Shown here in pieces: positions 2,886 through 35,474 of a stretch of 64,000 nt of DNA (position 1 is its first letter; each line of letters begins with the position of its first letter). The position numbers were made by a program, and so were the translations under genes. The notes beneath the pieces were generated by a model. The model was given only the letters and a program-made list of their open reading frames with translations, was not told where the DNA came from and did no database searches. Source of the stretch: Burkholderia contaminans (GTDB lineage: Bacteria > Pseudomonadota > Gammaproteobacteria > Burkholderiales > Burkholderiaceae); NCBI RefSeq assembly GCF_029633825.1, contig NZ_CP090642.1, positions 1,116,001-1,180,000 of the forward strand, given 5' to 3'.

Positions 2886-2904
2886 GACTTGGTCACTTGA
2901 CCTT
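2886..2904 (+). promoter_or_regulatory. Island operator, distal site of dioxygenase promoter
   Basis: GACTTGGTCACTTGACCTT, a near-perfect copy of the repeated palindrome (core GGTCA-CT-TGACC at 2891-2902) with the flanking GACTT. It lies 190 bp upstream of the second copy. Binding by the TetR proteins of this island is inferred. Confidence 0.65.
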
Positions 2905-3080
2905 ATTCATCACGAATATGGCAATTCACCGGAAACCTCGATGAACGGCTCCATGTCTGTCGCCTCTGGCTCCGGAAACATGTATCGGACCATCCAGCAG
3001 TCGCGACAACGTCGGGAATAACGTACACGCTCCGTCAACTGGCGTGAAAGGAGCGTATGGCAGAAGGCGAAGGTATATGT

Positions 3081-3098
3081 AGTCACATGACTCAGTCA
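3081..3098 (+). promoter_or_regulatory. Island operator, proximal site of dioxygenase promoter
   Basis: AGTCACATGACTCAGTCA: a symmetrical core AGTCA-CA-TGACT followed directly by another CAGTCA half-site, 94 bp before the dioxygenase ATG. The same compound arrangement recurs before the aminotransferase at 5084. A GACTTGAT element follows at 3106. Confidence 0.65.
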
Positions 3099-3185
3099 GA
3101 TATTCGACTTGATGTCTGGATCACCACCTGAATCAGAACGTGACGCCGTGTCTGATTTACCCGTCCAAGCAACTTTGAGGCAAAC

Positions 3186-4061
3186 ATGAACGCAACTATT
3201 CAGAACATTCATGACGCGCTCCCCACCGTCTCCAAGCAGACCGGCGCATACGAGATCGTGTCGCTCATGAATCAATATGGTGGAGTCCGGATCAAGAACT
3301 ATCTGACCCAGGAGCAGGTCGCGAACATCAACCGCGAGGTCGATGCGCCGCTCGAGCGGCTTCGCGAGGGGTCGTCGCATGATAACGAACTGATCAAGGA
3401 ATTCCACGGCACCTATACGAAGCGCCTGACGAACATGGTCACGCACAGCAAGACTTTCGGAGACGTGCTGGACGACGACCTCTTTCATGAACTCGGCGAG
3501 GTGCTGTACCGCGAGGAGTCCGGCGACTGGTGGCTTTCGACCGCGCAGGTCATCGACATCGGCCCGGGCAACACGGCACAGATGCTGCATCGCGACGTCG
3601 GCAATTTTCCACCCCTGTGCGCGCTCGGCGTCAACGGGCCTACGGTATTCACCAACCTCATGATTGCGCTGACGCGCTTCACCGAGGAAAACGGTGCCAC
3701 CCGGATCATTCCGGGCAGCCAGAACTGGGACGAGGATTACTTCGACAGCAAGGGCACGCCCGACATGACCATTGCCGCCGAGATGGATGCCGGCGACGCA
3801 TTGCTGTTCAGCGGAAAGGTGATCCACGGTGGCGGCGCGAACGTCACGAAGAACGAGCGTCGACGCGGGCTCACGATTCCGATGCAGCCGTCCTACCTGA
3901 CTCCGGAGGAAGCGTATCCGTTCATCGTCGAGATGGACACCGTGCGACGCCTGTCGAAACGCGTTCAGCGAATCATCGGCTTCCGCTCGCAATATCCCGC
4001 CGGCACGCCGGGCCTGTGGCAAGTCGACTACGACGATATCGCGACGCATCTCGGCCTCTGA
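3186..4061 (+). CDS. Phytanoyl-CoA dioxygenase family Fe(II)/2-oxoglutarate oxygenase (first copy)
   Basis: This 291-residue cytoplasmic oxygenase belongs to the PhyH family, whose members hydroxylate, desaturate or endoperoxidise substrates using Fe(II) and 2-oxoglutarate. The facial triad is visible as LHRDV (His135, Asp137) and KVIHGGG (His214), with a 2-oxoglutarate-binding Arg near 227. The FTEENGATRIIPGS segment is typical of the branch containing fumitremorgin endoperoxygenase FtmOx1 and related secondary-metabolite oxygenases. The substrate cannot be read from sequence. It is a monocistronic unit preceded by two copies of the island operator and followed by a strong hairpin. A second, divergent member of the family lies at 9334-10212, so the pathway probably contains two such oxidations. 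Confidence 0.85.
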   Translation: MNATIQNIHDALPTVSKQTGAYEIVSLMNQYGGVRIKNYLTQEQVANINREVDAPLERLREGSSHDNELIKEFHGTYTKRLTNMVTHSKTFGDVLDDDLFHELGEVLYREESGDWWLSTAQVIDIGPGNTAQMLHRDVGNFPPLCALGVNGPTVFTNLMIALTRFTEENGATRIIPGSQNWDEDYFDSKGTPDMTIAAEMDAGDALLFSGKVIHGGGANVTKNERRRGLTIPMQPSYLTPEEAYPFIVEMDTVRRLSKRVQRIIGFRSQYPAGTPGLWQVDYDDIATHLGL

Positions 4062-4402: not shown

Positions 4403-4915
4403 GCTTCCTCTGGAAGATCGAATACGTCGGCCTTGCCTCGCGCGCGGCTCGTGTCGAACGCGATCCGCGTAGCGCATTGCTCGCGCGTCGGTCGGTGGCT
4501 TTCGGTCTTGAACCGACCCGACAGCATGTGAGGCCACGCGTCGAGGACACGCGTGCCCGCGCGCTTCGGATGCTTCCAGCTGCGTTGATCAGTCTGCCAC
4601 TGCCATGCGCGCACCGTGCGTTTGAACATGCACGTACGCACCGCGAGCTCCCGCGGCGAAATCTTCTGGCGGAAATACACCGTCGCCCCCATCCCGCATC
4701 CCCATCTTGATCGCCCCGCATCCCTGCTCCAAAGATTGAGCGGGGATTTCCATGGTGCGGATCAGATGTCGACGCCGCGCAGCGCACGCAGGCGAACTGC
4801 CGCCGCTCAACTCGCCTCCTCCCCAATCGACGTGGCGAGCCGAATGCGACGTCGATCCATTGCTGTGCGGGCCTAGTGGAAAACGCCAATTTCAGTCTGG
4901 TCGACATTTATGGAC
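4384..4915 (-). mobile_element. Possible decayed IS21-type element remnant
   Basis: The minus strand carries broken frames. One of them (4384-4692) contains KISPRELAVRT followed by KRTVRAW, which resembles the N-terminal helix-turn-helix of IstA-type transposases (consensus roughly MSIREIARRTGLSRNTIKKYL). It is followed by PKRAGTRVLDAW and SHRPTREQ. The edge at about 4870-4918 reads like an IS end (GACTGAAATTGGCGTTTTCC on the minus strand). No intact transposase or IstB is present. This would explain why the dioxygenase and aminotransferase genes are now about 1.1 kb apart. The assignment is tentative. Confidence 0.35.
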
Positions 4916-4919
4916 ACTG

Positions 4920-4937
4920 GACTTGGTCAATTGACCT
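4920..4937 (+). promoter_or_regulatory. Island operator, distal site of class III aminotransferase promoter
   Basis: GACTTGGTCAATTGACCT spans 4920-4937. The core GGTCAATTGACC (4925-4936) is a perfect 12-bp palindrome. It lies 159 bp upstream of the proximal site at 5084 and directly at the end of the putative IS remnant. Confidence 0.65.
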
Positions 4938-5083
4938 ACTCACATGAAGCGACGACAGACGCCCAGGCGCGGGGCGCAGCAAAACTGGATTCGCGACGCG
5001 CGGCTGGACGGCACGTCGATCCAACGGCGAGACGTGCGATTTCGGAAGCAGCATTCCCCAAAATTCCCGGGTTCCGAATGAAT

Positions 5084-5101
5084 AGTCAAATGACTCAGTC
5101 A
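5084..5101 (+). promoter_or_regulatory. Island operator, proximal site of class III aminotransferase promoter
   Basis: AGTCAAATGACTCAGTCA, almost identical to the site at 3081 including the appended CAGTCA half-site. It lies 64 bp before the aminotransferase ATG, and GACTTGAT follows at 5105. Confidence 0.65.
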
Positions 5102-5158
5102 AAAGACTTGATAGCGGGTCTGACGTTCCGGAAACGAATTTTTCACAAGGAGTCGAGC

Positions 5159-6427
5159 ATGGACAGGCTGGCAAGGAAGAACGAGTGGTTCGCAAGAGCC
5201 GAGAAGGTCATCCCGGGCGGGATGTACGGTCACCAGAGCGTCAAGTACCTGACGGAAGATTTCCCGCTGTACTTTGCGAAAGCGAAAGGTACCCATCTGT
5301 GGGACGTCGACGGCAACCAGTACATCGACTACGTGTGCGGCTACGGCACGAACCTGTTCGGCTACGGCAACGAACGGATCGAGCAGGCCGCGGCCCGCCA
5401 GTTGCAGAAGATCGATACGGCAACGGGCCCCAGCGAGGTGATGGTCCAGCTTGCCGAGGCGCTCACCCAACAGGTCAGCCACGCCGATTGGGCGATGTTC
5501 TGCAAGAACGGCTCGGACGCCACGTCGATGGCGATGGTGATCTCGCGAGCATATCGCGAGAAGCGGAAGATTCTCGTTGCGCGCGGCACGTACCATGGTG
5601 CGTCCCCTTGGAACGTGCCCTATACGACGGGGATTACCAAGGAGGATCGGGCCCACGTCGTCCACTTCGAGTACAACGATATCGAGAGCCTCAATGCCGC
5701 CGTCAAGAGCGTCGACGGTGACGTAGCGGCCATCTATGCAACGCCGTTCCGCCACGAAGTGCTCTACGATCAGTTTTTCCCGTCGATCGAGTACGCGAAG
5801 GAATGCCGTCGCCTCGCGGACGAGCAGGAAGCGCTTCTGGTCGTCGACGAGGTTCGTACGGGGCTGCGCCTGTCGCGTGATTGCTCGTGGTCGGACTGGG
5901 GCGTGCACCCTGACCTCAGCTGCTGGGGCAAGGCCATCGGCGGCGGCTACGCGATCGCGGCGGTGCTCGGCTCGGACAAGGCACGAGAGGCAGCGACGAA
6001 GATTTTCGTCACGGGCTCCTACTGGCTCTCGGCTGTGCCGATGGCCGCGGCCATCGAAACACTGCGCCTGGTACGTGAAACCGACTACCTCGAACACACC
6101 AGGCGCTTGGCGGACAAACTGCGCGCCGGGCTCGCCGAGCAAGCCGAGCGGCATGGCTTCGAACTCAAGCAGACCGGGCCGAGCGTCATGCCCCAGATGC
6201 TGTTCGCGGGTGACGACGAACTCGTGTCGCGCGGCCGGGCGTGGGCTTCGGAAGTCATCAAGAATGGCGCCTATCTCCACCCGTGGCACAACATGTTCTT
6301 CACGGCGAGCCATACCGACGAAGACATCGCGCGCACGCTCGAGGCGACCGAAGCGGCGTTTGGCGCGATCAAGCAGAAGGCGGTTGCAGTGAGCCGCCTG
6401 GATATTCTGGACACGGTGCAGCGTTAA
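5159..6427 (+). CDS. Class III (glutamate-1-semialdehyde-like) PLP aminotransferase
   Basis: This 422-residue protein has the fold type I, class III aminotransferase layout. The N-terminal block is VIPGGMYGHQS, then LWDVDGNQYIDYVCGYGTNLFGYG, a cofactor-phosphate motif CKNGSDATSMAM, VVDEVRTGLR (Asp binding the pyridine nitrogen), and the Schiff-base lysine in WGKAIGGGY (Lys258). The GSAM-like N-terminus suggests a transaminase or aminomutase acting on a small or cyclic amine rather than a housekeeping function. The chosen ATG has AAGGAG six bases upstream. An in-frame extension to 4910 crosses the operator and is not credible. It is transcribed alone, with two operators upstream and a hairpin downstream. 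Confidence 0.85.
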   Translation: MDRLARKNEWFARAEKVIPGGMYGHQSVKYLTEDFPLYFAKAKGTHLWDVDGNQYIDYVCGYGTNLFGYGNERIEQAAARQLQKIDTATGPSEVMVQLAEALTQQVSHADWAMFCKNGSDATSMAMVISRAYREKRKILVARGTYHGASPWNVPYTTGITKEDRAHVVHFEYNDIESLNAAVKSVDGDVAAIYATPFRHEVLYDQFFPSIEYAKECRRLADEQEALLVVDEVRTGLRLSRDCSWSDWGVHPDLSCWGKAIGGGYAIAAVLGSDKAREAATKIFVTGSYWLSAVPMAAAIETLRLVRETDYLEHTRRLADKLRAGLAEQAERHGFELKQTGPSVMPQMLFAGDDELVSRGRAWASEVIKNGAYLHPWHNMFFTASHTDEDIARTLEATEAAFGAIKQKAVAVSRLDILDTVQR

Positions 6428-7047: not shown

Positions 7048-7749
7048 TTACCGCGGATTTCGCTCCAGGCGGCCAAGGGTATAGCCTCGAATCAGATTCC
7101 CTTCCTTTTCCTGCACCCGCTCCAGCGCGCAATAGGCGTAATACAACGAAACTGACATATAAGACCAAGAAAGCAATGCAAATATATAGAAAATCATATG
7201 ATCGCTGTCGCCAGGGATAGGGTAGAAGTCGTAGACGCTTGCAATAATCTGCGTGGATACGAGTGTCAGGACCACACCCGCAGCGTTACGATACTCTCCG
7301 GCATTCGCCAGTTTCTTGACAACGTAAATGAGGTAAAACGAGAACAAAGACCACATCACCAGATAGAAATACGGCTTGGGTCCGACCATGAAATCCGCGG
7401 TCCACAAAATGACCGTCCCGGCCAGTGCACCCACCGCATACAACATGTCGCCGACAACCGATGGTTTATATCGATGCGTAACCGACATCATGCCCGCAAC
7501 GATGATGATCGGCACGCCGAAGCCTCTTGAAAACGCGTCGCAGAAAAGCGAGATACTGAAAAAGACCGCCTTGCCGGTAAAGGCATTGATCATTAAATTC
7601 GTTGCAGAGAATGTCACGACCAGCGACTCGAATCCGAGGAGGCCGTTGCGCTTCCGGAAGTACTTCACGCCGCATATGAACGAAGTCACGATCAACGCGA
7701 GATCAGCCAGGCAATAAAGATAGAATTTGAGTTCCATGCAGAAATCCAT
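7048..7749 (-). CDS. Unrecognised multi-pass membrane protein
   Basis: A 233-residue, very hydrophobic protein with about seven predicted membrane segments. Charged residues concentrate at CGVKYFRKRNG (loop 1), THRYKPS and the C-terminal tail ALERVQEKEGNLIRGYTLGRLERNPR. I do not recognise the family. The even spacing of seven helices and the lack of a signal peptide resemble sensory or integral-membrane enzyme folds more than a transporter. Base composition is noticeably less GC-rich than its neighbours, which suggests separate acquisition. It lies between the MFS transporter and the EthD gene, on the same strand. The first ATG (7749) is used. Met5 is an alternative, and neither has a strong ribosome binding site. 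Confidence 0.75.
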   Translation of the reverse strand: MDFCMELKFYLYCLADLALIVTSFICGVKYFRKRNGLLGFESLVVTFSATNLMINAFTGKAVFFSISLFCDAFSRGFGVPIIIVAGMMSVTHRYKPSVVGDMLYAVGALAGTVILWTADFMVGPKPYFYLVMWSLFSFYLIYVVKKLANAGEYRNAAGVVLTLVSTQIIASVYDFYPIPGDSDHMIFYIFALLSWSYMSVSLYYAYCALERVQEKEGNLIRGYTLGRLERNPR

Positions 7750-7940
7750 GATCGTCGAGATATTTGTCTGCCGCTGCGTTCGTCATCCACGTTCACGGCA
7801 GTTTTTTGCGCTGCCTGTCGACGCGAGCGGGCTCTTCCGAGCGATGTCTGCTCCGCAATGGCATGTCAGGCATGCTGGCGCCGCCCTGGTACCGGTGCGG
7901 TCAGTGCGGCCGCGCTCAGTTGATCGCTTCGCCGCGCACG

Positions 7941-9089
7941 TCAGGCGACAGCGGCTTCGGCATGTTTTGCCTTGAACTGCCGGATCGCCACGCTGGTCAG
8001 GAAGATCGGCACCACCAGCAACCCGACGGAGAGCCAGCCAACCGCACGCAAACCAGCCACGCTGAACACCGTGCCGGCAATCGCGGGGCCCACCGTCAGG
8101 CCAAGATTGATTGCCGACGCACAGGTCGCGGTGCTTCTTCCGCTGGCATCCATTTGCGAAAGTGCCGCCACCATATAAGGAGCCACCAGCGTGGCGCCGG
8201 CACTGACGAGCGCCGTCGACACGAGAAACGCCCACTTGCCGCCCACGCAATACATGCCCAGGCTGCATGCGATCAACAGCGCGAGTCCAAGGGCGATCGG
8301 CTTGAACAGCCCAAAACGATCGCCCAGCCAGTTGACCGCCACCCCCACCGGCAACTGGAGGGCCGCATTGAGCATGAACAGCATGCCGAGTTGCTCCGCT
8401 TCGACGCCCCGGGTTGCAGCGACCTCAGCGGCAAATCCCATCAGGGCCGTCTGCGAGACGTAGATGAAGAATGCGCTGATCAGAATCCCTCGGACGTCAC
8501 TGGATTTGATGGCGTCCTTCGCGACCGCTTCCTCGCTTGTGTTGACGGCAGGATGCATGAACGCGCCGAAAAACAGCGCCGCCACGACCACGGCAAGCTG
8601 GACGGCATCCACCCCGATATGCCCCATCTTCACATTCACGATCGGTACGACGTACATCGCACAGGAAAATATGATGGCCATCGCAACGGCTACTTGCGCC
8701 GCGACCTTCTCCGGGTGCTTGACGTGTGCAATCACCCCATACGCGCACACGCAACTGACGCCCAACGCGGCGCCGAGAATCAGCTTCGCGGCGACGAATA
8801 CATGGAAATTATGTGAAAACATCGCACACGTCGACAGAACGGCGAACGCTGCCGCAGCGAGCGCGCCCGTTCTCTTGTTCAACGTCGCCGTGTGACGACC
8901 GAAAACGATGATGGAAAGCGAAAGACAGAGCAGCACCGCGGATGCGAGCCAGCCAGCGGTGCTTTCGGACAGCCCGAACCGGGCCATCGATTCCTCGATG
9001 CTGAATGGGAGCAGGTAGGTTGGCGTCCAGACCACGGCCCCGGTATAAAGCAGCGCGATTTTTCGGATTCCCTTGATTTCGACACTCAC
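7941..9089 (-). CDS. MFS transporter
   Basis: A 382-residue major facilitator with about twelve hydrophobic segments. FGRHTATLNKRTGA near residue 63 corresponds to the loop 2-3 motif, and NWLGDRFGLFKP is the matching loop in the second half (the GDRFG type). The substrate is unknown; in this context it is probably the island substrate, an intermediate or an exported product. The GTG start (VSVEIKGIRK) has AAGGAG eight bases upstream and is better than the longer frame. It is part of the minus-strand unit starting at 11091, with 244 bp to the dioxygenase upstream and 191 bp to the membrane protein downstream. Confidence 0.8.
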   Translation of the reverse strand: MSVEIKGIRKIALLYTGAVVWTPTYLLPFSIEESMARFGLSESTAGWLASAVLLCLSLSIIVFGRHTATLNKRTGALAAAAFAVLSTCAMFSHNFHVFVAAKLILGAALGVSCVCAYGVIAHVKHPEKVAAQVAVAMAIIFSCAMYVVPIVNVKMGHIGVDAVQLAVVVAALFFGAFMHPAVNTSEEAVAKDAIKSSDVRGILISAFFIYVSQTALMGFAAEVAATRGVEAEQLGMLFMLNAALQLPVGVAVNWLGDRFGLFKPIALGLALLIACSLGMYCVGGKWAFLVSTALVSAGATLVAPYMVAALSQMDASGRSTATCASAINLGLTVGPAIAGTVFSVAGLRAVGWLSVGLLVVPIFLTSVAIRQFKAKHAEAAVA

Positions 9090-9333
9090 GATCGACTCCT
9101 TGTCGTTTGCACGAATACGAGATCGCGACGAGGCATCGAATCGCCCTCTTGCTCGCATTCATACCGGCACTGTTTCGAAGACTGCTTCATCCAACCGAAA
9201 AATCGCAATTTCAGAATGGCTCGCGCTGCAGCGACCCAAGCATCCCGTCGACCGACCACGATGCCTTCAGGTGATGGAATCGCCCGATCTCCGCGTGAAA
9301 ACCGGGCCGGGATTCCACCACCCATCCCGTCCG

Positions 9334-10212
9334 TTAATCGAAATGCCCGACCTCGAGGAAATCCTTCATTTTCAGCAGGTCATTCGGGTCCGACATTTGA
9401 CCGTTACGCTCGACGAACCCGGCGAAAGTCGTGCCGTACGTCCAGCCGAGCAGGCGCTGCAGTTCCTCCGGATAGCGCTTCACGCGCTCGATGGGCAGCG
9501 TCAGGTACTGGTTTTCTTCCTGCCGGAGGATCGCCAGGTCATATGACATGGTCAGGCCCGTGCGCGGTGCATCGCTGGTGTTCTTCCCGCCCCCGTGATA
9601 GGTGGAGCCGATGAAGAACAGCGCATCGCCGGCCGACATGGTCGCGGGAATGGCTTCCTCCTGCTTGGGCATGCGCTCGTCATCCCACTTGTGGCTGCCC
9701 GGGATGACGAGCGTGGCGCCGTTTTCCGCCGTAAAGTCCGATACGGCCACCATCACCTGGAACCGGGCCTCGCGCCCGTAGTTCGGGTGCCGCCAGAGCC
9801 ATACGGAATCGTCACGATGCAACGGCTGAAGGCCCTGCCCCGGCAGAATCTGGATGGCTTGCGTCACCCCCACCTGAATATCGGGAGCGACATCGACCTG
9901 GTTTTCGCCGCTCCAGATCTTGATCGGCGTCTGCAGGATGCTGCGCGCCGCACCCAGATAGAGCGGATGCAACGCCACCTCGGCCATCCAGTCGGTACGC
10001 GCGAAGAGGCGCGAGACGCGACGCGTCTGTGTACCGGCGAAGTAGTCGTCTACTCCGTTCGGAGCCGACTCGAGCGTGTCAAAGAGCGTGCGCTGGATTC
10101 GCGCAAGCAAATCGGCATCGAGAAAGTTCTTGACGATCGCTCCACCATCCTGCCTGACTGCATTAGCAAGATCTTCAGGAGTGCTACCACTTGAAAGGCG
10201 CTGCAACGACAT
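9334..10212 (-). CDS. Phytanoyl-CoA dioxygenase family Fe(II)/2-oxoglutarate oxygenase (second copy)
   Basis: A 292-residue member of the same family as 3186-4061 but clearly divergent. It keeps the iron triad in PLHRDDS (His132, Asp134) and STYHGGGKN (His206) and a 2-oxoglutarate-binding Arg near 217. The block FTAENGATLVIPGSHKW aligns with the first copy. It lies 21 bp downstream of the imine-reductase-like gene and is probably co-transcribed from the promoter at about 11100. Two non-identical oxygenases in one regulon suggest two successive hydroxylations or desaturations of one substrate. The substrate is unknown. Confidence 0.85.
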   Translation of the reverse strand: MSLQRLSSGSTPEDLANAVRQDGGAIVKNFLDADLLARIQRTLFDTLESAPNGVDDYFAGTQTRRVSRLFARTDWMAEVALHPLYLGAARSILQTPIKIWSGENQVDVAPDIQVGVTQAIQILPGQGLQPLHRDDSVWLWRHPNYGREARFQVMVAVSDFTAENGATLVIPGSHKWDDERMPKQEEAIPATMSAGDALFFIGSTYHGGGKNTSDAPRTGLTMSYDLAILRQEENQYLTLPIERVKRYPEELQRLLGWTYGTTFAGFVERNGQMSDPNDLLKMKDFLEVGHFD

Positions 10213-10233
10213 GATGATTCCTCCAACAAATTG

Positions 10234-11091
10234 TCAATGATTGAAGAGTGCGGCGTACCCCCGGTCTCCACTGCCTTCTGCAATGGCCGACAGGATTCGC
10301 TCGCGGAGCGCTGTCAGAATTCGCGGCGGCTGCCCGATATCTTCCTGCGCCTGTTGAAACAGTTCGGTCGCTCGTGCGTAGATGTCGAGGTCTGCTCCTC
10401 GGGGTTGATAGTCGGCAGCCGACACGGATTCGAACAGACCTTCGATGAAGTGGGTCTGACCGGCGATGTAGGTTGGGATCAGGTCGCGAATCTCGTCGAT
10501 CGAAATGCCGGAATTCACGACGAATCTGAGCCCTTCCAGGAAGGCTGCGCCGGCACCAAAAACGAAGGTGCCCGTCAACCCGGCGTCGAGCACGTTCGGC
10601 ACGTCGGGGCGCGCACTGACGTAGGTGGATTGCGGCGCAATCTTCCGAAGCAGAGGCTCCACTTCGCCCCAGATCTTCTCGTCGCCACCAAAAAGGATGA
10701 CGGCGCTCTCGCGGCCGATATCCGGCGGGAAGCACTGGATTGTTCCGCTGATGAATTTTGCGCCGGCGCCACGCACGATTTGATCCAGCTTCCGGACCTC
10801 GGACGGGCGCCCCGTTGCCAGATTGATCACCGTTTTCCCTTTCAAACGTTCGCCCAACGCCTCGAAATCTGCCGCGAGGTCAACCGGTGTGGCCGTCACG
10901 ACGACGATGACGTCCGCCTCGTCAAAGGCGGCGGTGGCACGCTCGGCAACCCGGGCTCCCAGTTCGCGCATACGCTGCGCCTTTTCCGCCTTCCTGTTCC
11001 AGACGACGACTTCCGCACCATCGTCAAGCAAGGTGGCGGCAACGGCGGACCCCATCACGCCCAGGCCCAAAACGGCAATCACATTGCTCAT
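10234..11091 (-). CDS. Imine-reductase-like / beta-hydroxyacid dehydrogenase family NADP oxidoreductase
   Basis: A 285-residue protein with an N-terminal Rossmann domain (GLGVMG at residues 9-14, then VVVWNRK, a pattern favouring NADP) and an all-helical C-terminal half. It belongs to the beta-hydroxyacid dehydrogenase/imine reductase superfamily. The stretch ISGTIQCFPPDIG near 125-137 matches the position of the imine-reductase block that ends P..IG. The catalytic Lys of true hydroxyisobutyrate dehydrogenases (GxxGxGxxxK) is not seen; instead there is DAGLTGTFVFGAG. An imine/iminium reductase or dehydrogenase role therefore fits better and agrees with the two transaminases nearby. It is the first gene of a five-gene minus-strand unit with operators at 11172 and 11335. 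Confidence 0.75.
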   Translation of the reverse strand: MSNVIAVLGLGVMGSAVAATLLDDGAEVVVWNRKAEKAQRMRELGARVAERATAAFDEADVIVVVTATPVDLAADFEALGERLKGKTVINLATGRPSEVRKLDQIVRGAGAKFISGTIQCFPPDIGRESAVILFGGDEKIWGEVEPLLRKIAPQSTYVSARPDVPNVLDAGLTGTFVFGAGAAFLEGLRFVVNSGISIDEIRDLIPTYIAGQTHFIEGLFESVSAADYQPRGADLDIYARATELFQQAQEDIGQPPRILTALRERILSAIAEGSGDRGYAALFNH

Positions 11092-11167
11092 TCGTATTCC
11101 CTATCGTTGTCGTTGACCACACTACCGAGAAATGCCATTCGTTCAAGTCAACCACTCGAATCATCCG

Positions 11168-11183
11168 ACTTGGTCATATGACT
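11168..11183 (+). promoter_or_regulatory. Island operator, proximal site of imine-reductase operon
   Basis: GACTTGGTCATATGACT, core GGTCA-TA-TGACT at 11172-11183, 81 bp upstream of the minus-strand start at 11091. Confidence 0.65.
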
Positions 11184-27803: not shown

Positions 27804-27835
27804 AACTTCACCTTTGTTCGAACGTTGCTCGGAGA

Positions 27836-29326
27836 TCAGCGATACACGAGGACTTCGGCATCCGGGCTCAATTCCGGAATGGTCTGGCGCTCCTCCTCGT
27901 ACTCGAAGTGGTGCTGCCACGGCATGCGATCGCCACGCAGGTGCATCTGGTGTTGCGAGCGCATCACGTATCCGGCATTGAAGTTGTTCGGGTCGGTCCA
28001 GGGCAGCCGCTGCATGTCGGCGTCTTCGGCGCGCAGGCGCGGCTCCACCGTCTTCGCGCCCACCTTGTCCATATGCGCCAGGACGCGGCAGGTGAATTCG
28101 CAGACGAGATCGGCGCGCAGCGTCCAGCTCGACCGGTAGTAGCCGTAGATGAACGCCATGTTCGGGATACCCTCGACCATCATTCCCCGATACGAGACCC
28201 GCTTGGTCATGTCGACCGGTTCGCCGTCGAGGTGGAACGCGATCTGGCCGAAAGCGCTCATGTCGAAGCCCGTCGCCGTCACGACGATGTCCGCCTGGAG
28301 ATGCTCTCCCGACGCCAACACGATGCCGCGTTCATCGAACGATTCGATGGTGTCCGTCACGACGGACGCTTTGCCGTCCCGGATGGCCGCGAAGAGGTCG
28401 CCCTCCGGCACCGCCGCCACGCGCTGCTGCCACGGGCGATAGCTGGGGTTGAAGTGCTTGTCGACGTCGAACCCTTCCGGCAGCTGCTGGCGGGTCTCGT
28501 TGATCAGCCAGTCGCGAACGGCGTCCGGGTTCGCGGCCGACAGGTTGATCAGGTCGAACGTCTGCTTCAGGTGCGCCCGCCGCAGAATCTCGGAGCGCCA
28601 TTCTTCCGGGAGGCTCAGTTCGCGAAGCGTCGTGTCCAGCTGGTGGGTCCAGGGAACCGCCGTGAAGAACGTCGGCGAACGTTGGAGCATCGTCACATGC
28701 GCCGCGGTGCCGGCCATCGCCGGAATCAGCGTCGCGGCGGTCGCGCCCGAGCCGATCACGACCACCCGCTTGCCGGCATAGTCGAGGTCGTCCGGCCAGT
28801 GCTGCGGATGAACGACCGTTCCCTTGTAGCGATCGAACCCGTTCCACTTCGGCGTAAAGCCCTTGCGATGGTCGTAGTACCCCGCCCCCAGCCACAGGAA
28901 GTCGGTGGTGATCGAGAAGTGTTCGCCCGTATCCTTGCGCGACACCTCGACCGTCCAGCGCTTGTGCTCGCTCGACCAGCTCACCGTTTGAACACGATGC
29001 CCGTAGTGGATCTTCGAACCGAGGTCATATTCCTTGATGACGTCGCCCAGATAGCTGTGGATCTCCTCCGCCGTGGCGATCGAGCGGCCCTGCCACGGGC
29101 GGAATCCGAATGCATACGTGTACAGGTCGCTGTCGGAACGCGCGCCGGGGTAGCGATGGGTCCACCACGTACCGCCGAATCCATCCATGGCTTCCAGGAT
29201 CGCGAACGAGCGGTCCGGCAAGTTCATGCGAAGATGACAGGCGGCATCGATCCCCGAGATCCCCGCCCCGATGATTAGTACCTCTACGTGCTCAGGCAAA
29301 CCCGAATCTGCTTGATTCCTAGTCAT
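27836..29326 (-). CDS. Flavin-containing Baeyer-Villiger monooxygenase (EthA-like)
   Basis: A 496-residue class B flavoprotein monooxygenase. The first Rossmann motif GAGISG is at residues 20-25 and the second in VVVIGSGATAATL. The Baeyer-Villiger fingerprint is present as YKGTVVHPQHW-P, with Tyr in place of the usual leading Phe. GFGGTWWTHRYPGARSDSDLYTY and the FTAVPWTHQLD segment resemble EthA/MymA-type enzymes, which accept hydrophobic ketones. It inserts oxygen next to a carbonyl to give an ester or lactone, using NADPH. The ATG of MTRNQADSG has GGAGGG five bases upstream. It is the first gene of the operon, with operators at 29391 and 29540. Confidence 0.87.
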   Translation of the reverse strand: MTRNQADSGLPEHVEVLIIGAGISGIDAACHLRMNLPDRSFAILEAMDGFGGTWWTHRYPGARSDSDLYTYAFGFRPWQGRSIATAEEIHSYLGDVIKEYDLGSKIHYGHRVQTVSWSSEHKRWTVEVSRKDTGEHFSITTDFLWLGAGYYDHRKGFTPKWNGFDRYKGTVVHPQHWPDDLDYAGKRVVVIGSGATAATLIPAMAGTAAHVTMLQRSPTFFTAVPWTHQLDTTLRELSLPEEWRSEILRRAHLKQTFDLINLSAANPDAVRDWLINETRQQLPEGFDVDKHFNPSYRPWQQRVAAVPEGDLFAAIRDGKASVVTDTIESFDERGIVLASGEHLQADIVVTATGFDMSAFGQIAFHLDGEPVDMTKRVSYRGMMVEGIPNMAFIYGYYRSSWTLRADLVCEFTCRVLAHMDKVGAKTVEPRLRAEDADMQRLPWTDPNNFNAGYVMRSQHQMHLRGDRMPWQHHFEYEEERQTIPELSPDAEVLVYR

Positions 29327-29386
29327 GAGATCCCTCCGATGACCCGTTATTGACAATATCCGTAACGCCGCACGACTAGATCACTA

Positions 29387-29403
29387 GACTTGGTCATGTG
29401 ACT
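29387..29403 (+). promoter_or_regulatory. Island operator, proximal site of BVMO operon
   Basis: GACTTGGTCATGTGACT, core GGTCA-TG-TGACT at 29392-29403, 66 bp upstream of the BVMO start. A degenerate extra copy (GATCACTAGAC) immediately precedes it. Confidence 0.65.
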
Positions 29404-29539: not shown

Positions 29540-29556
29540 GATCAATTGACCAAGTT
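29540..29556 (-). promoter_or_regulatory. Island operator, distal site of BVMO operon
   Basis: GATCAATTGACCAAGTT, i.e. AACTTGGTCAATTGATC on the minus strand, 148 bp beyond the proximal copy. Confidence 0.6.
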
Positions 29557-29662
29557 CAACGGTTCCCAGTCTATGCAGTCGAGAGGCAATTTGAATCAGG
29601 AGTTTCCATTACACGGCCGATCGCGAAGGTGGCCCGCGTCGGCCCGCGCGACGGCCCAGGCG

Positions 29663-30646
29663 TCAAACGTCGAAATCTTCTTTTTCGGCAAGCCGCCGGA
29701 CAAACGAAGCGGCGCGATCCAGCAGACGGGTTGCTGCCGGGATAGTACGGGCGGCGGTGATGATGCCGTGATGATGCCCGGGCAGATGGTGATGCTCGAC
29801 CGTGCTCCCCGCGCGGGCCGCGCATGACGCGTAGGCAATGCCTTCGTCACACAGCGGATCCAGCCCCACCGTGGCAATGAACATTGGCGGCTGCCGCCGG
29901 CCTTCCGCATGCAGCAGCGGTGACAGGCGCGGAAGATCAAACGGCGTACCGGCCGGCACGTAGTGTTCCCGGAACCACAGCATCGACTCGGCGACCAGCG
30001 GAAATCCGCCTTGAATGCGCTGGTATGACGGAAGCGACGCCGTCAGGTCCGTCACGGGATAGAACAGGATCTGCCCGATGATCGCGGGTCCCGCGGCCGA
30101 TGCCGCATTGGCGATGAGGGTCGCCATATTGCCGCCGGCGCTGTCGCCCGCCAGGATCACCCGAGACGCATCGATGGCGAGCGCTGACGCGTTGGCCGCC
30201 AGGTAGTCCAATGCCTGCTCGCAGTCTTCGAGCGGGACCGGCCACCGGTGCTCCGGCGCTAGCCGGTACTCCACCGAAGCGACGGCACACCCGCCATGCC
30301 GTGCGAGATGACGGCAGATGCCGTCATGCGTGTCCACGCTGCCGATCACCCACCCGCCGCCGTGAATGAAGACGACCAGCGGGGCGCCGTCGGCACGCGC
30401 CCCGGCGGGCGGACGATAGAGCCGCACGCGAATGCGGCCGCCCGCGACGGGAACGTCGATGTCCTCATGGACAACGGCCGCGTCACCCGTAAGGCCGTTC
30501 AATTCGCAGGCCCGCACGAAGTTCACGCGCGACTGGTCGACGGAAAAGCTGCCGTAGTGTCGCCCGCCCAGTTCGCGGAACGCCCGAACGGCGTCCCGGG
30601 CATCGTCAGCCACCTCGGTCAGCGGCAACCAGTGCACGAATGTCAT
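29663..30646 (-). CDS. HSL-type alpha/beta hydrolase (second esterase/lactonase)
   Basis: A 327-residue hormone-sensitive-lipase family enzyme with FIHGGGWVIG (oxyanion hole), EYRLAPEHRWPV, the nucleophile motif AGDSAGGNMA, VGLDPLCDEG and a late His in HHLPGHHHG. It is paralogous to the hydrolase at 26853-27803. It starts 12 bp after the second BVMO, so the pair is translated together; the product of that monooxygenase is its likely substrate. It is the last gene of the four-gene unit beginning with the aldehyde dehydrogenase at 34880. Confidence 0.87.
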   Translation of the reverse strand: MTFVHWLPLTEVADDARDAVRAFRELGGRHYGSFSVDQSRVNFVRACELNGLTGDAAVVHEDIDVPVAGGRIRVRLYRPPAGARADGAPLVVFIHGGGWVIGSVDTHDGICRHLARHGGCAVASVEYRLAPEHRWPVPLEDCEQALDYLAANASALAIDASRVILAGDSAGGNMATLIANAASAAGPAIIGQILFYPVTDLTASLPSYQRIQGGFPLVAESMLWFREHYVPAGTPFDLPRLSPLLHAEGRRQPPMFIATVGLDPLCDEGIAYASCAARAGSTVEHHHLPGHHHGIITAARTIPAATRLLDRAASFVRRLAEKEDFDV

Positions 30647-30658
30647 GTGCGTCCCCGC

Positions 30659-32122
30659 TCAGATCGCAGCGAACGCGCTTTGATCCCATTGCGTCACGGC
30701 GCGGTATTCGTCCACCGTGCCCGGCCAGTTGTTGATCACCTTGCCTTGCGCGTTCTTGTACCAGCTCGAGCAGCCTGCCGAAAACGCCGACCCGGCCATC
30801 GCCGACTGCAGCTTGCCGTTGTATTCGTCGAACACGGCCCGATCGACGTCGACGGCCTTCACGCCAGCCGAAGCCATGCCGCCGATCGCGTCGATGATGT
30901 AGTTCTGCTGGATTTCGAGCATCGACACGATGGAGTTGTGGTTCAGGTTCGTATTCGGCCCATACAACATGAACATGTTCGGAAAGCCCGGCACGGTCAT
31001 GCCGAGATAGGCTTCCGGGCCGTCTTGCCATGCCTGGGCCAGCGTGCGGTCCGTTCCACGCACCTGCAGGCTGCCCTGGAAAGCCTGACTCTCGAATCCG
31101 GTTCCGAACACCACGACGTCGAACGGAAGCAGGCGGCCGTCCCGGGTCACGATGCCTTCGTCGACGAACGATTCCACGCCCGCCGTCTCCAGCGCGACGT
31201 TGTCGCGCATGAGCGCCGGATAGTAGTCGTCCGATCGCAGAATCCGTTTGCACGCGTATTCATAGTCCGGCGTCAGCTTCTCGCGCAATACCGGGTCGGG
31301 CACCTGGCGATGCAGGTGCGCCAGCGCGAGACTCTTGCCTTCCTGCTGCGCGCTGGACCCCATCCGCGTACGCTCGAACCCGGACTCGCGGAAGGCGTGC
31401 AGCGATTTCCGGCTTTCTTCGAAGAGATGGGGCTCGCGCTCGTAGGTATCGAGCTGCTCCGTCGAGAAGACGATCTGGTTGCGCGGCATGATCCAGTTCG
31501 CGCTTCGCTGGAATACCGTCAGGTGATCGACCTTCGGCGCAATGAGCGGCACATACTGCACGGCGCTGGCGGCGTTTCCGATGCTGGCCACCCGCTTGCC
31601 GGTCAGGTCCACGTCGTGCCGCCACTCGGCGGAGTGGAAATAGTCTCCGTTGAAATCCGCCAGGCCGCGAACCGCGGGGATCATCGGGCGGTTCAGCTGC
31701 CCCCAGGCCGGCACGAAGAATCGGGAGGTCAGCCGGGATCCGTCACTCAGCGAGAACCGCCAGAGGCTGGCGCCGGCATCCCATTCGGCACTGAGAATCT
31801 CGGTGTCGAATCGCAGGTGATCCGTCAGGTCGAACCGCGTGGCAAGCGATTTCAGATAGTGCAGCAGCTCGTTGCGGCCGGCATACATCGCGCTCACGCG
31901 CAAATGCGGATGGAAGCTGTAGCAGTACAGGTGCGATTCGGTATCGCATGCCGCGCCGGGATACGAATTGTCCAGCCAGACGCCGCCGAGATCGGGACGC
32001 TTCTCCAGCACGACGAAATCGTCGATGCCCGCGATTTTCATGCGAGCGGCCATGCCGAGGCCTCCGAAGCCTGAACCCAGGATAACGATCTCGTGGTGCT
32101 CAATCCTTTCTACATTGTTCAC
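30659..32122 (-). CDS. Flavin-containing Baeyer-Villiger monooxygenase (HAPMO/CHMO-like)
   Basis: A 487-residue class B flavoprotein monooxygenase, distinct from the copy at 27836. FAD motif GSGFGG at residues 16-21, LGGVWLDNSYPGAACDTESHLY, the Baeyer-Villiger fingerprint FNGDYFHSAEW, and the second Rossmann motif VASIGNAASAVQYV. The C-terminal YGPNTNLNHNSIV block is typical of the 4-hydroxyacetophenone/cyclohexanone monooxygenase branch. The GTG start (VNNVERIEHHE) follows a GAGAGAG stretch; longer frames are overlapped by the upstream gene and are not credible. It lies between the iron alcohol dehydrogenase and an esterase. Confidence 0.87.
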   Translation of the reverse strand: MNNVERIEHHEIVILGSGFGGLGMAARMKIAGIDDFVVLEKRPDLGGVWLDNSYPGAACDTESHLYCYSFHPHLRVSAMYAGRNELLHYLKSLATRFDLTDHLRFDTEILSAEWDAGASLWRFSLSDGSRLTSRFFVPAWGQLNRPMIPAVRGLADFNGDYFHSAEWRHDVDLTGKRVASIGNAASAVQYVPLIAPKVDHLTVFQRSANWIMPRNQIVFSTEQLDTYEREPHLFEESRKSLHAFRESGFERTRMGSSAQQEGKSLALAHLHRQVPDPVLREKLTPDYEYACKRILRSDDYYPALMRDNVALETAGVESFVDEGIVTRDGRLLPFDVVVFGTGFESQAFQGSLQVRGTDRTLAQAWQDGPEAYLGMTVPGFPNMFMLYGPNTNLNHNSIVSMLEIQQNYIIDAIGGMASAGVKAVDVDRAVFDEYNGKLQSAMAGSAFSAGCSSWYKNAQGKVINNWPGTVDEYRAVTQWDQSAFAAI

Positions 32123-32181
32123 GGTGCACTCTCTCTGCTCTCTGTTTACATGACGGCGACTGCGGATCTGCCGGCGTCGGT

Positions 32182-33348
32182 TCAATAAGCCTGTTCGTAC
32201 AGGCGCAATGCATCCGACTCCGTGACGACGACCGGATTGTTCAACAGCAAGCGCTGCTGCTTCATCGCATCGGCCGCGAGGGTCGGCAGGCTCGATTGCG
32301 TGACACCCACGTCGCGCAGACGACGCGGCGCGCCGGATCGGTCCATCAGGTCTTCCAGGAATGCGATGAACGCCGCCGTGCGCGCCGTGGCGTCGCCCTG
32401 TCCACCCGCGCCGACGACGGCTGCCAGTTCCGAATAGTGCGAAGCCGCCGCTTCGGCGTTGAAACGCAGCACGGGCGCCAGCATCAATGCGTTGGACAAG
32501 CCGTGCGGGATATGGAAATGGCCGCCCAACGGATACGCCAGTGCATGGACCGCCGCCACCGGAGCGTTGGCGAAGGCCTGCCCCGCCAGCGTGGCGCCGA
32601 GCAGCATGGCCTCGCGCGCGCGCCGGTCCTCGCCGTTTTCGCAAGCGGGGATCAGGTTGCCCACCAGCAGTCGCAGCGCCTCACGCGCGAGCGCATCGGA
32701 AATGGCATTCTTCTTGTGCTTGCTGGTATAGGCCTCGATGGCATGAACCATCGCGTCGATGCCCGTCGCAGCGGTATGGCTGCATGGCAAACCGACCGTC
32801 AGCTCGGCGTCCAGGATCACTTTGTCGGCATACAGCTGACGTGCGACGATGCCCATCTTGGTTGTTTCGTCAACCGAAACGATGGAAATGTTGGTGACTT
32901 CCGACCCGGTACCCGCCGTTGTCGGGATCTGCACCAACGGCAGGCGCGCACCCTGAACGTTGCCGATTCCGTACATTTGCGCGAGCGATTGCCGCGACAC
33001 GGTGAGCACCGCGGCCAGTTTTGCGATGTCCATCGACGAGCCGCCGCCCAGGCCAATGACGACGTCCGCCTCGGCGCTGCGCGCGAACGCCACGCAGCGC
33101 AAGACCACGTCCTCCGGCGGGTCGGCCACGACCTCGTCAAACACCGCCACGCGGAATCCCTCGGCCGCCAACGACGCTTTCGCCGGTTCCAGCACACCGG
33201 CCTTGTGCAGCCCTGCATCGGTCACGATCAGGACATGGCGGCGCTCCGTCCATGCCGCCATCACCTGACCCAGGCGGCGCGCACAACCCCATTCCTGGAG
33301 AATGGACGGAACAGTTTCGAAGAGCATCGACTGCGGGAGCATTTCCAT
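32182..33348 (-). CDS. Iron-containing (group III) alcohol dehydrogenase
   Basis: A 388-residue group III alcohol dehydrogenase. NAD-binding GLGGGSSMDIAKLAAVL is near residue 100 and IPTTAGTGSEVTN near 140. The metal-binding segment is HAIEAYTSKHKKNAISDALA and HALAYPLGGHFHIPHGLSNALM. It interconverts an alcohol and an aldehyde with NAD. Placed between an aldehyde dehydrogenase and BVMO plus esterase, it would oxidise the hydroxyl group released by ester or lactone hydrolysis. AAGGA lies seven bases before the ATG. Confidence 0.9.
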   Translation of the reverse strand: MEMLPQSMLFETVPSILQEWGCARRLGQVMAAWTERRHVLIVTDAGLHKAGVLEPAKASLAAEGFRVAVFDEVVADPPEDVVLRCVAFARSAEADVVIGLGGGSSMDIAKLAAVLTVSRQSLAQMYGIGNVQGARLPLVQIPTTAGTGSEVTNISIVSVDETTKMGIVARQLYADKVILDAELTVGLPCSHTAATGIDAMVHAIEAYTSKHKKNAISDALAREALRLLVGNLIPACENGEDRRAREAMLLGATLAGQAFANAPVAAVHALAYPLGGHFHIPHGLSNALMLAPVLRFNAEAAASHYSELAAVVGAGGQGDATARTAAFIAFLEDLMDRSGAPRRLRDVGVTQSSLPTLAADAMKQQRLLLNNPVVVTESDALRLYEQAY

Positions 33349-33377
33349 TGACGTTTCCTTGATGCGGACGTTGGCCG

Positions 33378-34880
33378 TCAGACCTGGCTGCACATGTACT
33401 TGATTTCCAGGTATTCCTCGATGCCGTAACGGGAACCCTCACGGCCCAGGCCCGACTGCTTGACCCCGCCGAACGGCGCGACCTCGTTGGAAATCACGCC
33501 GGTATTCAGGCCGACCATGCCGTACTCGAGTGCCTCGCCCACACGCCAGATGCGGCCGTGGTCGCGTGTATAGAGATAGGCAGCGAGCCCGTACTCGGTG
33601 TCGTTGGCCATCGCGATCGCTTCTGCTTCATCCTCGAAGCGGAACACCGGGCCGACGGGCCCGAAGAGCTCCTCGCGCGCGAGACGCATCGCCGGCGTCG
33701 CATCGGCAATGACGGTCGGCTCGAAAAACGTGCCGCCGAGCGGGTGGCCTTTCCCGCCGGTGACGATTCGCGCGCCCTTGCTGACGGCGTCGTCGATCAG
33801 CTGATTCAGGTGGTCGCACGCGGACTTCTGGATCAGCGGCCCCTGCTGCACCCCCGCCTCGATGCCGTTTCCTACCTTGAGTGCCTGGACTCGCCGGGCG
33901 AGCGTGTCGACGAAACGGTCATGAATGCCTGCCTGGACGAGAAAGCGATTCGCGCACACGCAGGTCTGGCCGCTATTGCGGTACTTCGACGCCATCGCAC
34001 CTTCAATCGCCGCGTCGAGATCCGCGTCGTCGAACACGATGAACGGTGCGTTGCCGCCGAGCTCGAGAGACAGTCGCTTGATCGTCCCGGACGACTGGCT
34101 CATGAGCACGCGGCCGACTTCGGTCGAACCGGTGAACGAAAGCTTGCGCACGACCGGGCTGGCCGTGAGCACCGCGCCGATCTCGCGTGACGGGCCGCAC
34201 ACCACTTGCAGGACGCCCGCCGGAATGCCCGCTCGCTCGGCCAGGACGGCGAGCGCAAGCGCCGTGAGCGGCGTCAGGTCCGCGGGGCGCACGATGATGG
34301 AGCAGCCTGCGGCCAGGGCCGGCGCGACCTTGCGCGTAATCATCGCGGCAGGGAAATTCCACGGCGTGATCGCGGCACACACGCCGATCGGCTGGCGGAT
34401 GACGAGGATGCGCTTGTCGCCTTGCGGATGAGGAATGACGTCGCCGTAGACACGCTTCGCTTCTTCGGCGAACCATTCCACGAAGGAAGCCGCATACATG
34501 ATTTCGCCGCGGGCCTCCGCCAGCGGCTTGCCCTGCTCCGATGTCATGATCAGTGCGAGATCGTCGGTGTTCGCCACGATCAGGTCGTACCAGGCGCGCA
34601 GTAGCTTGGCGCGCTCGTGGCTGGTCCGCTTCTGCCAGCCTTGCTGTGCCAGCGCCGACGACGCAATGGCCTGTTCGACGTCCGCGGCGCCGAGGCTGGC
34701 CACGCGGGCCAGGATGTCACCCGTGGCCGGATTCGTTACGGGAAACGAACGGCCATCCGCGCCCTCCTCCCATCCCGACGCCAGCCAGGCACGCGTCTCC
34801 AGCAAGGAGCCGTCCCGAAGTTGGGCGCGTAGCGCCGAAGGGTCAATCGCTTGGTTCGTCCTGCTGTGCATTTCATTCAC
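33378..34880 (-). CDS. Succinate-semialdehyde-type aldehyde dehydrogenase (second copy)
   Basis: A 500-residue aldehyde dehydrogenase of the GabD/SSADH branch. It shows AAITPWNFPAAMITRK, SFTGSTEVGR, the general base Glu in SLELGGNAPFIVFDDAD and the nucleophile in NSGQTCVCANRF, where the second Cys is typical of SSADH. The C-terminal EVAPFGGVKQSGLGREGS also fits. It probably makes the terminal carboxylate of a dicarboxylic or hydroxy acid. The start is uncertain: GTG at 34880 has GGAGA at eight bases, GTG at 34886 and ATG at 34871 are alternatives. It is the first gene of the ALDH-ADH-BVMO-esterase unit. Confidence 0.87.
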   Translation of the reverse strand: MNEMHSRTNQAIDPSALRAQLRDGSLLETRAWLASGWEEGADGRSFPVTNPATGDILARVASLGAADVEQAIASSALAQQGWQKRTSHERAKLLRAWYDLIVANTDDLALIMTSEQGKPLAEARGEIMYAASFVEWFAEEAKRVYGDVIPHPQGDKRILVIRQPIGVCAAITPWNFPAAMITRKVAPALAAGCSIIVRPADLTPLTALALAVLAERAGIPAGVLQVVCGPSREIGAVLTASPVVRKLSFTGSTEVGRVLMSQSSGTIKRLSLELGGNAPFIVFDDADLDAAIEGAMASKYRNSGQTCVCANRFLVQAGIHDRFVDTLARRVQALKVGNGIEAGVQQGPLIQKSACDHLNQLIDDAVSKGARIVTGGKGHPLGGTFFEPTVIADATPAMRLAREELFGPVGPVFRFEDEAEAIAMANDTEYGLAAYLYTRDHGRIWRVGEALEYGMVGLNTGVISNEVAPFGGVKQSGLGREGSRYGIEEYLEIKYMCSQV

Positions 34881-35474
34881 GAGCACCGTCTCCAGAAATT
34901 CTTGTTTTTCAACCTGACGCTTTCAGCCGACGGGCGAAAGCTGCCCAGGCGTCAACACGCGGACGCCTGCTTCATCTCCCGGGATTTCGCCAAACTTCCG
35001 GTGGCCGATGCGCGCCAATCTCCGCGCCGCCCCGAAGCTTTCGCAAAACGTTGTCCGCCCTGGGGCAGTCCGTGCTGCGCGGCGACGTCCAATTGGGGAT
35101 GAAACAAACGTGTAGATCATTTGACATGGTCATTTGACCATAAACCATTTTTTGCGGCAACTCAGTAGTTGCACGGGCTGTCGGTGACTCGTTGGGAGAT
35201 GATCACGCCAGGCTGTGACGGTCAGACAAGGGGATTGCGCGGGACCTGCGCTGGCAACGCGAACCCGACGGATGTTCCTGGCGGCGTAAGGCGCGAAGGC
35301 GAAGCCGCCAGTGTCGGGCAAACAACGGGCATGGTGCAGCGGCTGAAGTAGCCGTTCCCGGCCTCCGCCGCCGGGTCTCATCCGACTTCAGTCGTTCAAT
35401 GCGATCGCGAAATGCGACGCCCGATCCTGGCGGACGATCTGCACCGATGCGCGCGCAGATCGCCTCTCACGCAC
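34881..35474. other. Intergenic region at right border of the island
   Basis: 594 bases with a tandem operator at 35114-35138 and otherwise no recognisable content. The operator is 234 bp from the nearest start codon, farther than at other promoters, so a long untranslated leader or an unusual promoter position is implied. Confidence 0.5.
35114..35139 (+). promoter_or_regulatory. Tandem island operators before ALDH operon
   Basis: Two abutting copies: GATCA-TT-TGACA at 35114-35125 and TGGTCA-TT-TGACCA centred in 35126-35139. They are the rightmost copies found in the window. Confidence 0.6.

Follow-up and report, generated by a model that had tools for sequence, protein, structure and literature searches.

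Background

Dimer-of-dimers operators of TetR-type regulators have been described with lengths of 28 bp for QacR, 32 bp for CgmR, 31 bp for Ms6564 and 22 bp for CprB (PMC4150764). The operators of the Burkholderia contaminans island studied here resemble this class in that their 21-bp palindrome pair, 27-30 bp if flanks are counted, could accommodate two dimers, but they show two recognisable palindromes 13 bp apart rather than one long, poorly palindromic site; the proximal site of the regulator gene TetR2 is single, and two-dimer occupancy is predicted here. RutR of E. coli reads an approximately 16-bp palindrome (PMC10891134). The island regulators TetR1 and TetR2 show a weak likeness to the NCBIfam RutR model (E-values of 3.7e-8 and 2.7e-7), scoring 33.5 and 30.6 bits against the equivalog cut-off of 368 (TIGR03613). 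They are not orthologous with RutR, and pyrimidine genes are uninvolved in their island. The RutR box, which we take to be TTGACCANNTGGTCAA, has the same 2-bp centre as the island operator and differs by one base per half, and we know of no tandem unit for RutR. PA3973 of Pseudomonas aeruginosa, also of TetR type, carries at its own promoter two (pseudo)palindromes lying near each other (PMC9736018); its motif SAAGRNMTGAACG differs in sequence from that of the island, and its regulon, unlike the island, is scattered.

In a full-text literature search, 28 papers contained an operator string and the 25 of these that were listed deal with subjects other than bacterial regulators, judging by title and opening of the abstract, which is compatible with the original prediction that the operator is not a described one but does not prove it. 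Literature on TetR regulons with a BVMO in Burkholderia, on TetR/RutR motifs and on paralogues sharing an operator yielded no matching system, nor did that on BVMO/methyl-ketone pathways and fum clusters with a BVMO.

The operator and its concentration in one island

The window is a stretch of 64,000 nucleotides, for which about fifteen intergenic copies of one palindromic operator, all in a metabolic island, had been predicted. The motif is real and far above chance: with up to three mismatches, the pattern GACTTGRTCANNTGAYC has 24 matches in the window, against a mean of 3.39 and a largest count of 8 in 100 dinucleotide shuffles. All 15 predicted copies are present within a few bases, 14 with an exact TCANNTGA core and the one at 15377 reading TCATTTGG; the number of operators is smaller, since 15377/15390 and 35114/35127 form one operator each. 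Most often an operator consists of two TCANNTGA palindromes set 13 bp apart. At this offset, 13 pairs have at least 10 of the 12 core letters (control mean 1.05, largest 3, 20 controls) and 9 have at least 11 (control 0.10), while other offsets within 8-30 give 0-5 and 0-3 pairs, respectively. Offsets 8 and 9 are somewhat raised at the 10-letter cut-off (5 and 4 versus controls of 1.10 and 0.65), and at the 9-letter cut-off offset 13 (23 pairs) stands barely above 9 (22), 8 (21) and 27 (20). The spacing counts rejected one simple palindrome as the general form: the motif is palindromic as predicted, but in most cases the operator is a double palindrome of 21 bp.

A matrix was trained on 94 distinct sites from 11 other islands, own genome left out; these were chosen by the originally predicted consensus with at most one mismatch, so that anything new lies in the flanking columns alone; G043, among the training genomes, is a close relative. 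It gave 17 hits of at least 10 bits in C3:1096001-1180000 (20 kb upstream plus the window), against 0.1 hits per 84 kb in 10 Markov simulations. The hits correspond to 14 operators, three of them hit in two registers, and span C3:1113262 to window position 35137; as predicted, none reaches 10 bits in the last 29 kb of the window. Other loci were scanned with the matrix at 48 places, L004-L011 and L013 being left out and some of these examined with a simpler count instead. Motif refinement with a low cut-off was abandoned at 462 hits, against 25 in the control.

Genome-wide pattern scans placed all exact copies (5/5) and 10 of the 11 places with at most one mismatch inside the island; weaker matches lie mainly elsewhere, only 5 of the 34 two-mismatch places being in the island. 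The double form falls in the island in 10 of 12 cases, compared with 0/3 for an N6 control form. Within the window there are 13 operators for eight transcription units, five of which have two operators each, 133-190 bp apart; nearly all promoters of the gene group carry one. A 14th operator, 2.7 kb left of the window, serves an acyl-CoA ligase, and the regulon thus reaches beyond the window. Operators and genes are as follows (window coordinates, strand, description).

2880..2900, +, distal operator before PhyH1, TCATACGA-cttgg-TCACTTGA; kept before PhyH1 in the islands compared
3083..3103, unstranded, proximal operator before PhyH1, at a distance of 190 bp to the distal operator; absent from G059 and G029
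3186..4061, +, PhyH1, phytanoyl-CoA dioxygenase-like (PF05721)
4914..4947, +, distal operator before class III transaminase, three units 13 bp apart
5086..5106, unstranded, proximal operator before class III transaminase (pair spacing, matrix, island comparison)
5159..6427, +, class III transaminase, with aminopentol aminotransferase 6hbs as its closest solved chain
7048..11091, -, probable operon from NAD-binding dehydrogenase to Pfam-less protein, limits suggested by strand and spacing
10234-11091, -, NAD-binding dehydrogenase of this operon
9334-10212, -, PhyH2 of this operon
7941-9158, -, MFS transporter of this operon
7048-7749, -, protein of this operon without Pfam match
11161..11181, +, proximal operator before NAD-binding/PhyH2 operon (pair spacing, matrix, island comparison)
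11324..11344, +, distal operator before NAD-binding/PhyH2 operon, one palindrome and a half
11870..12499, +, TetR1 (PF00440, 41.1 bits, cut-off 24)
12866..12886, -, distal operator before TetR2; lost in G387
12956..12984, +, sigma70-like promoter TGGACA-17-CATAAT before TetR2, conserved; 10/12, best match in 2500-17100
12996..13011, unstranded, proximal operator before TetR2, single perfect palindrome ATGGTCACTTGACCAT
13085..13684, +, TetR2 (PF00440, 38.9 bits, cut-off 24)
13832..15382, -, ALDH1, aldehyde dehydrogenase, probably starting further inside the ORF than 15382
15379..15399, -, operator before ALDH1 (pair spacing, matrix, island comparison)
15682..15702, -, operator before class IV transaminase (pair spacing, matrix, island comparison)
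15822..16802, +, class IV transaminase, resembles fold-IV amine transaminases
17070..23648, +, DUF1329, DUF1302, MMPL and YCF48-like genes behind class IV transaminase, putatively co-transcribed
23866-24885, OmpR-type response regulator
25002..29356, -, flavin monooxygenase unit
27836-29356, -, flavin monooxygenase
about 26877-27644, -, Abhydrolase_3 esterase of flavin monooxygenase unit
25002-26672, -, GMC oxidoreductase
29381..29401, +, proximal operator before flavin monooxygenase (pair spacing, matrix, island comparison)
29542..29562, -, distal operator before flavin monooxygenase, one palindrome and a half
29663..34886, -, putative ALDH2 operon
33378-34886, -, ALDH2
32182-33393, -, Fe-ADH
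30659-32644, -, BVMO, ORF over-long
29663-30646, -, Abhydrolase_3 esterase of ALDH2 operon
35117..35137, +, operator before ALDH2 operon, two exact palindromes

The ORF of the class III transaminase is listed from 4910, but a conserved AAGGAG and ATG make 5159 the most likely start, and with this start the sites at 4914-5106 are intergenic, as all copies had been predicted to be; a two-mismatch match at 18785, on the other hand, falls within the DUF1302 gene.

Conservation of the operators and of the TetR pair

Most of the operator layout is retained in 11 other islands, one of them rearranged, and the 12 islands together hold 179 sites with pair spacings kept promoter by promoter. Among retained sites, 49 of 54 core columns are invariant versus 535 of 1357 flanking columns, in a count that leaves out G029 (all five regions), G059 (PhyH1) and G387 (TetR2) and omits the class III transaminase, ALDH1 and ALDH2 regions. 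G059 and G387 have lost a site in the very regions dropped from the count, and the losses in single islands comprise the proximal PhyH1 site (G059, G029) and the distal TetR2 and distal class III transaminase sites (G387). Many near-identical copies within one 38-kb stretch could suggest a dispersed repeat devoid of regulatory role; however, the copies hold fixed places before the same genes while flanks change, and different promoters are alike mostly just at the operator, so that we give this explanation almost no credence. Where the acyl-CoA ligase gene lies apart (3 islands) it has its own double operator, and where it lies within the operon (6 islands) it has none of its own. DNA looping in strict helical register was rejected, as the spacing at the flavin monooxygenase unit varies from 144 to 163 bp among the 12 islands.

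The TetR pair is present in 11 of 65 Burkholderia genomes, always both together. Genomes with the pair have 6-15 sites (median 10) and the 54 without it 1-7 (median 2), three TetR-less genomes having 6 or 7 and two TetR-bearing ones only 6 and 7; these are raw counts ignoring relatedness, in which the TetR genes are not separable from other island genes. Genome-wide pattern scans, conservation in 11 other islands and this co-occurrence all speak for a single local regulon. One short DNA word marks out a catabolic regulon with about nine transcription units, among them a displaced ligase gene, which could not be linked by position alone. A widespread operator family was rejected, since a search with TetR2 in 369 genomes sampled from the class found its own genome only; in 398 genomes sampled from the family there were 11 matches, ten in the own genus and one in another.

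Two TetR paralogues as candidate binders

TetR1 and TetR2 both carry an N-terminal TetR_N helix-turn-helix domain (PF00440, both passing the cut-off of 24). The predicted structure of TetR2 has nine helices in an all-helical two-domain fold (mean pLDDT 84.1, pTM 0.78), and most of its best 50 PDB matches carry the name of a TetR-type regulator (TM to query 0.45-0.66). Across 12 islands the two proteins are 94% identical in residues 38-50, the recognition segment, 77% in residues 1-62 and 37% in the rest, the ligand domain. Because the recognition segments are nearly identical, TetR1 and TetR2 should read the same DNA. We consider it probable, judging from sequence, that two TetR repressors with different inducers share the operator set of one local catabolic regulon. 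A TetR-type dimer would read about TGRTCANNTGAYCA, and the second TCANNTGA unit, 13 bp off at most sites, would leave room for two dimers side by side over roughly 21-30 bp. TetR1 and TetR2, the paralogues of the island, are the most likely binders, and their unlike ligand domains may respond to different pathway molecules. The two proteins had been proposed as binders before and are the best candidates, though binding itself is predicted from sequence. That the DNA alone defines a pathway, as originally predicted, is too strong, since we infer what binds, in which sense it regulates and what the substrate is; binding by one or both TetR proteins, repression, two inducers and the operon limits have the same standing. 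If both read the operator, two sensors would act on one site in a natural and conserved system, which would be useful for understanding how duplicated repressors divide work, and possibly as a two-input switch.

In 11 of 12 islands TetR2 is preceded by operators spaced 133-134 bp, whereas in the same comparison TetR1 has none within 500 bp of its start and is preceded by an inverted repeat, CTACCC-N5-GGGTAG, at 11816-11832. These observations would suit a single reader, most likely TetR2, with TetR1 having drifted, for example to the inverted repeat; we hold this to be unlikely, given recognition segments that stay nearly identical while the ligand domains diverge, and given that neither gene occurs alone in the 11 genomes.

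Upstream of TetR2, the proximal operator (12996-13011) follows the promoter-like sequence at 12956-12984, as expected from sequence for a TetR autorepressor, and would be the place for autorepression. A promoter scan of 2500-17100 found 8 promoter-like matches versus 4.0 expected, mildly above chance overall; no clear promoter turned up at units other than TetR2. Activation by the pair, or by one of them, could be argued from conserved blocks about 50-60 bp from several operators, which leave room for another promoter geometry outside TetR2; but the TetR2 operator sits behind a -10-like box and most described TetR proteins repress (PMC3511530), which makes activation improbable.

Another binder, either the OmpR-type response regulator (23866-24885) or a protein encoded outside the island, seems highly improbable. 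Direct repeats can suit OmpR-type response regulators, and this one is present in ten other Burkholderia islands; however, it was rejected as binder because it was not found in 46 kb examined of a 50-kb contig of G387 that carries 13 sites, and TetR-less genomes show background site counts, arguing against a core-genome regulator.

Returning to shared reading by both repressors, we put forward a more tentative version, which we rate as rather doubtful: TetR1 and TetR2 kept one specificity but sense two molecules, and jointly occupy the tandem palindromes island-wide (one dimer each or mixed), so that the pathway would open only on two signals, as a two-input gate arisen from gene duplication whose operator travels with a departing gene.

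Enzymes and putative substrate

The enzymes, also by their closest solved relatives, point to the breakdown of a hydrophobic long-chain 2-amino compound (2-amine) via a methyl ketone. A transaminase would give the methyl ketone, the BVMO an acetate ester and an esterase the alcohol, which Fe-ADH and ALDH would convert to the acid and the ligase to the CoA ester. FumI-like transaminases are found in quite different neighbourhoods, which counts against fixing the substrate; the guess names a testable substrate class, long-chain 2-amines. FumI, the aminotransferase for hydrolysed fumonisin B1 of Sphingopyxis sp. MTA144, makes 2-keto-HFB1 (PMC2933618). The likeness of the island to the FumI system is its class III transaminase; by contrast, the island combines a BVMO with esterase, ADH and ALDH genes, and its esterases are Abhydrolase_3. 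The class III transaminase belongs to the FumI-like aminotransferase subfamily, a statement of subfamily membership only, and matches 6hbs, presumably FumI, with 535 bits over residues 6-407, the next best solved chain reaching 166 bits.

Operator abundance and form

The original prediction placed a palindromic operator, with consensus GACTTGRTCA-NN-TGAYC, at about 15 places, all of which are present in the window sequence (C3:1116001-1180000 in contig coordinates), and 24 matches with at most three mismatches were found there against a shuffled mean of 3.39. The enrichment of the motif in the island was borne out by a scan of the whole 9.44-Mb genome, in which 5/5 exact matches and 5/6 one-mismatch matches fell inside the island, against only 5 of the 34 two-mismatch matches. 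The palindrome stands, but it mostly forms part of a double operator, in which TCANNTGA pairs lie 13 bp apart, and a single palindromic form does not describe most sites. Over offsets 8 to 30, the 13-bp offset gave 13 TCANNTGA pairs with at least 10/12 letters (control mean 1.05, with 3 the largest of 20) and 9 pairs with at least 11/12 letters (control 0.10); offsets 8 and 9 were also slightly raised, and at a 9-letter cut-off the 13-bp peak was not distinct. Genome-wide, TCANNTGA-N5-TCANNTGA with at most one mismatch occurred at 12 places, 10 of them within C3:1113262-1151137, and the N6 control spacing at 3 places, none in the island.

A matrix derived from 94 distinct sites in the 11 other islands corresponds roughly to RRTCAYNTGACTTGRTCAWWTGAYCA. 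The middle of this string is fixed by site selection; TCAYNTGA on its left and the flank on its right are not. When 84 kb of the own genome was scanned with this matrix at 10 bits or more, 17 matches representing 14 operators were obtained (control 0.1). The operators at 11324 and 29542 consist of the palindrome plus a half, short of the full double, and that at 12996-13011 is a single perfect palindrome. The operator had not been recognised as a described one, in line with a full-text literature search for the motif strings, mostly without subscription journals, in which none of the matches listed (25 of 28 papers) concerned a bacterial regulator.

Transcription units and conservation

Twelve islands were compared, namely the own island, ten from the same genus and one from Paraburkholderia (G387); close orthologues of the class IV transaminase (93-98%) come from Burkholderia and Paraburkholderia.

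Units served by the operator, with operator pair spacing (operon limits of multi-gene units are putative)
PhyH1; 183-190 bp, 10/12 islands
Class III transaminase; 157-159 bp, 9/10 islands having the gene
NAD-binding dehydrogenase, PhyH2, MFS transporter, unknown protein; 161-169 bp, 12/12 islands
TetR2; 133-134 bp, 11/12 islands
ALDH1
Class IV transaminase, then DUF1329, DUF1302, MMPL and YCF48 genes
Flavin monooxygenase, esterase, GMC oxidoreductase; 144-163 bp, 12/12 islands
ALDH2, Fe-ADH, BVMO, esterase
Ninth unit, AMP-binding acyl-CoA ligase, C3:1111304-1112980, outside the window; double operator 286-299 bp before the gene

Across the 12 islands the matrix, at a cut-off of 12 bits, found 179 sites. 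BLAST gene limits made 21 of them intragenic: 20 fall in the excess 5' part of the class III transaminase ORF, and one within the gene for the unknown protein in another genome (G006). In five aligned regions, invariant columns made up 49/54 of the core versus 535/1357 of the others, counted on retained sites with islands that had lost a site left out. The G387 island is rearranged, yet its operators are kept at the same units. Its uptake part may have been exchanged, because the DUF1329/DUF1302/MMPL/YCF48 genes (L096-L098, the G387 loci) are only 38-68% identical to the own genes and their neighbours mostly 77-97%.

In six islands the acyl-CoA ligase sits within the ALDH2 operon and has no separate operator; in three it stands elsewhere and has a double operator to itself, and in the stretches examined of the other three it was not found. 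We read it as a regulon member that keeps an operator when standing alone. A P450-reductase fusion gene (p450, flavodoxin, FAD and NAD domains; L001:11876-15067 in the own locus, C3:1107876-1111067) adjoins the displaced ligase, and in several other islands it likewise lies close to the left end; in the own genome the matrix scan found no operator preceding it. The window's operator-free part holds an aromatic amino acid lyase gene (PF00221, 47241-48836, minus strand).

Promoter geometry

The best promoter-like match in 2500-17100, TGGACA-17-CATAAT, is conserved and lies directly before the TetR2 palindrome, the scan of this stretch giving 8 matches versus 4.0 expected. Conserved blocks adjoin distal operators at units other than TetR2. 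GGGTTWACC, followed by ATCGAC, was found at window 2832-2840, 12817-12825 and 15629-15637, where it lies 48-53 bp ahead of three operators; GGAGTTTCCATTA occurs at 11396-11408 and 29599-29611, some 50-60 bp past two of the distal operators. If the conserved blocks belong to promoters, the proximal operators would lie in transcribed leaders. The two operators of a unit might act additively or might stop an elongating polymerase; a loop in strict helical register between them is unlikely. TetR proteins are known that occupy 22-32 bp with two dimers (PMC4150764).

The putative pathway

Among solved chains, the class III transaminase is closest to the aminopentol aminotransferase 6hbs (535 bits, next 166 bits), which we take to be FumI. 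FumI converts hydrolysed fumonisin B1 to a methyl ketone (PMC2933618). The class IV enzyme is similar to amine transaminases of fold IV, several of which are named (R)-selective, and the BVMO is closest to putative flavin monooxygenases, then to steroid, phenylacetone and cyclohexanone monooxygenases. A coherent order would run from amine through methyl ketone, acetate ester, alcohol and acid to CoA ester, but two plasmid-borne FumI-like relatives sit among other genes. We give such a pathway roughly an even chance; a link to fumonisin itself is more doubtful.

Candidate regulators

We class the operator-bearing units as a TetR regulon that is new and well bounded; what could amount to more is the two-sensor reading. 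TetR2 homologues (E 1e-20) occur in 11 of 65 genus genomes, with two matches in each, and these 11 carry 6-15 sites versus 1-7 in the other 54 (AUC 0.996, p 6e-8, kinship ignored). Eleven of 398 genomes sampled from the family matched TetR2, and among 369 sampled from the class the own genome alone. Over the 12 islands, TetR1 and TetR2 agree by 94% at residues 38-50, 77% at residues 1-62 and 37% beyond. At E 1e-6 no relative of either was found in the examined DNA of 44 loci whose class IV transaminases are less closely related, and in 48 loci including those 44 the matrix gave a match of at least 9 bits in three (best 12.5). This points to the TetR pair as candidate binder but does not set it apart from other island genes.

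In Acinetobacter lactucae, one locus (L012) brings together relatives of PhyH, the flavin monooxygenase, the class IV transaminase (64%), ALDH and the ligase, with neither the TetR pair nor the operator present; we read this as a pathway of the same kind that is controlled differently. Before TetR1 lies an inverted repeat, CTACCC-N5-GGGTAG (window 11816-11832), conserved in the lines seen, which is possibly a separate site or a hairpin.
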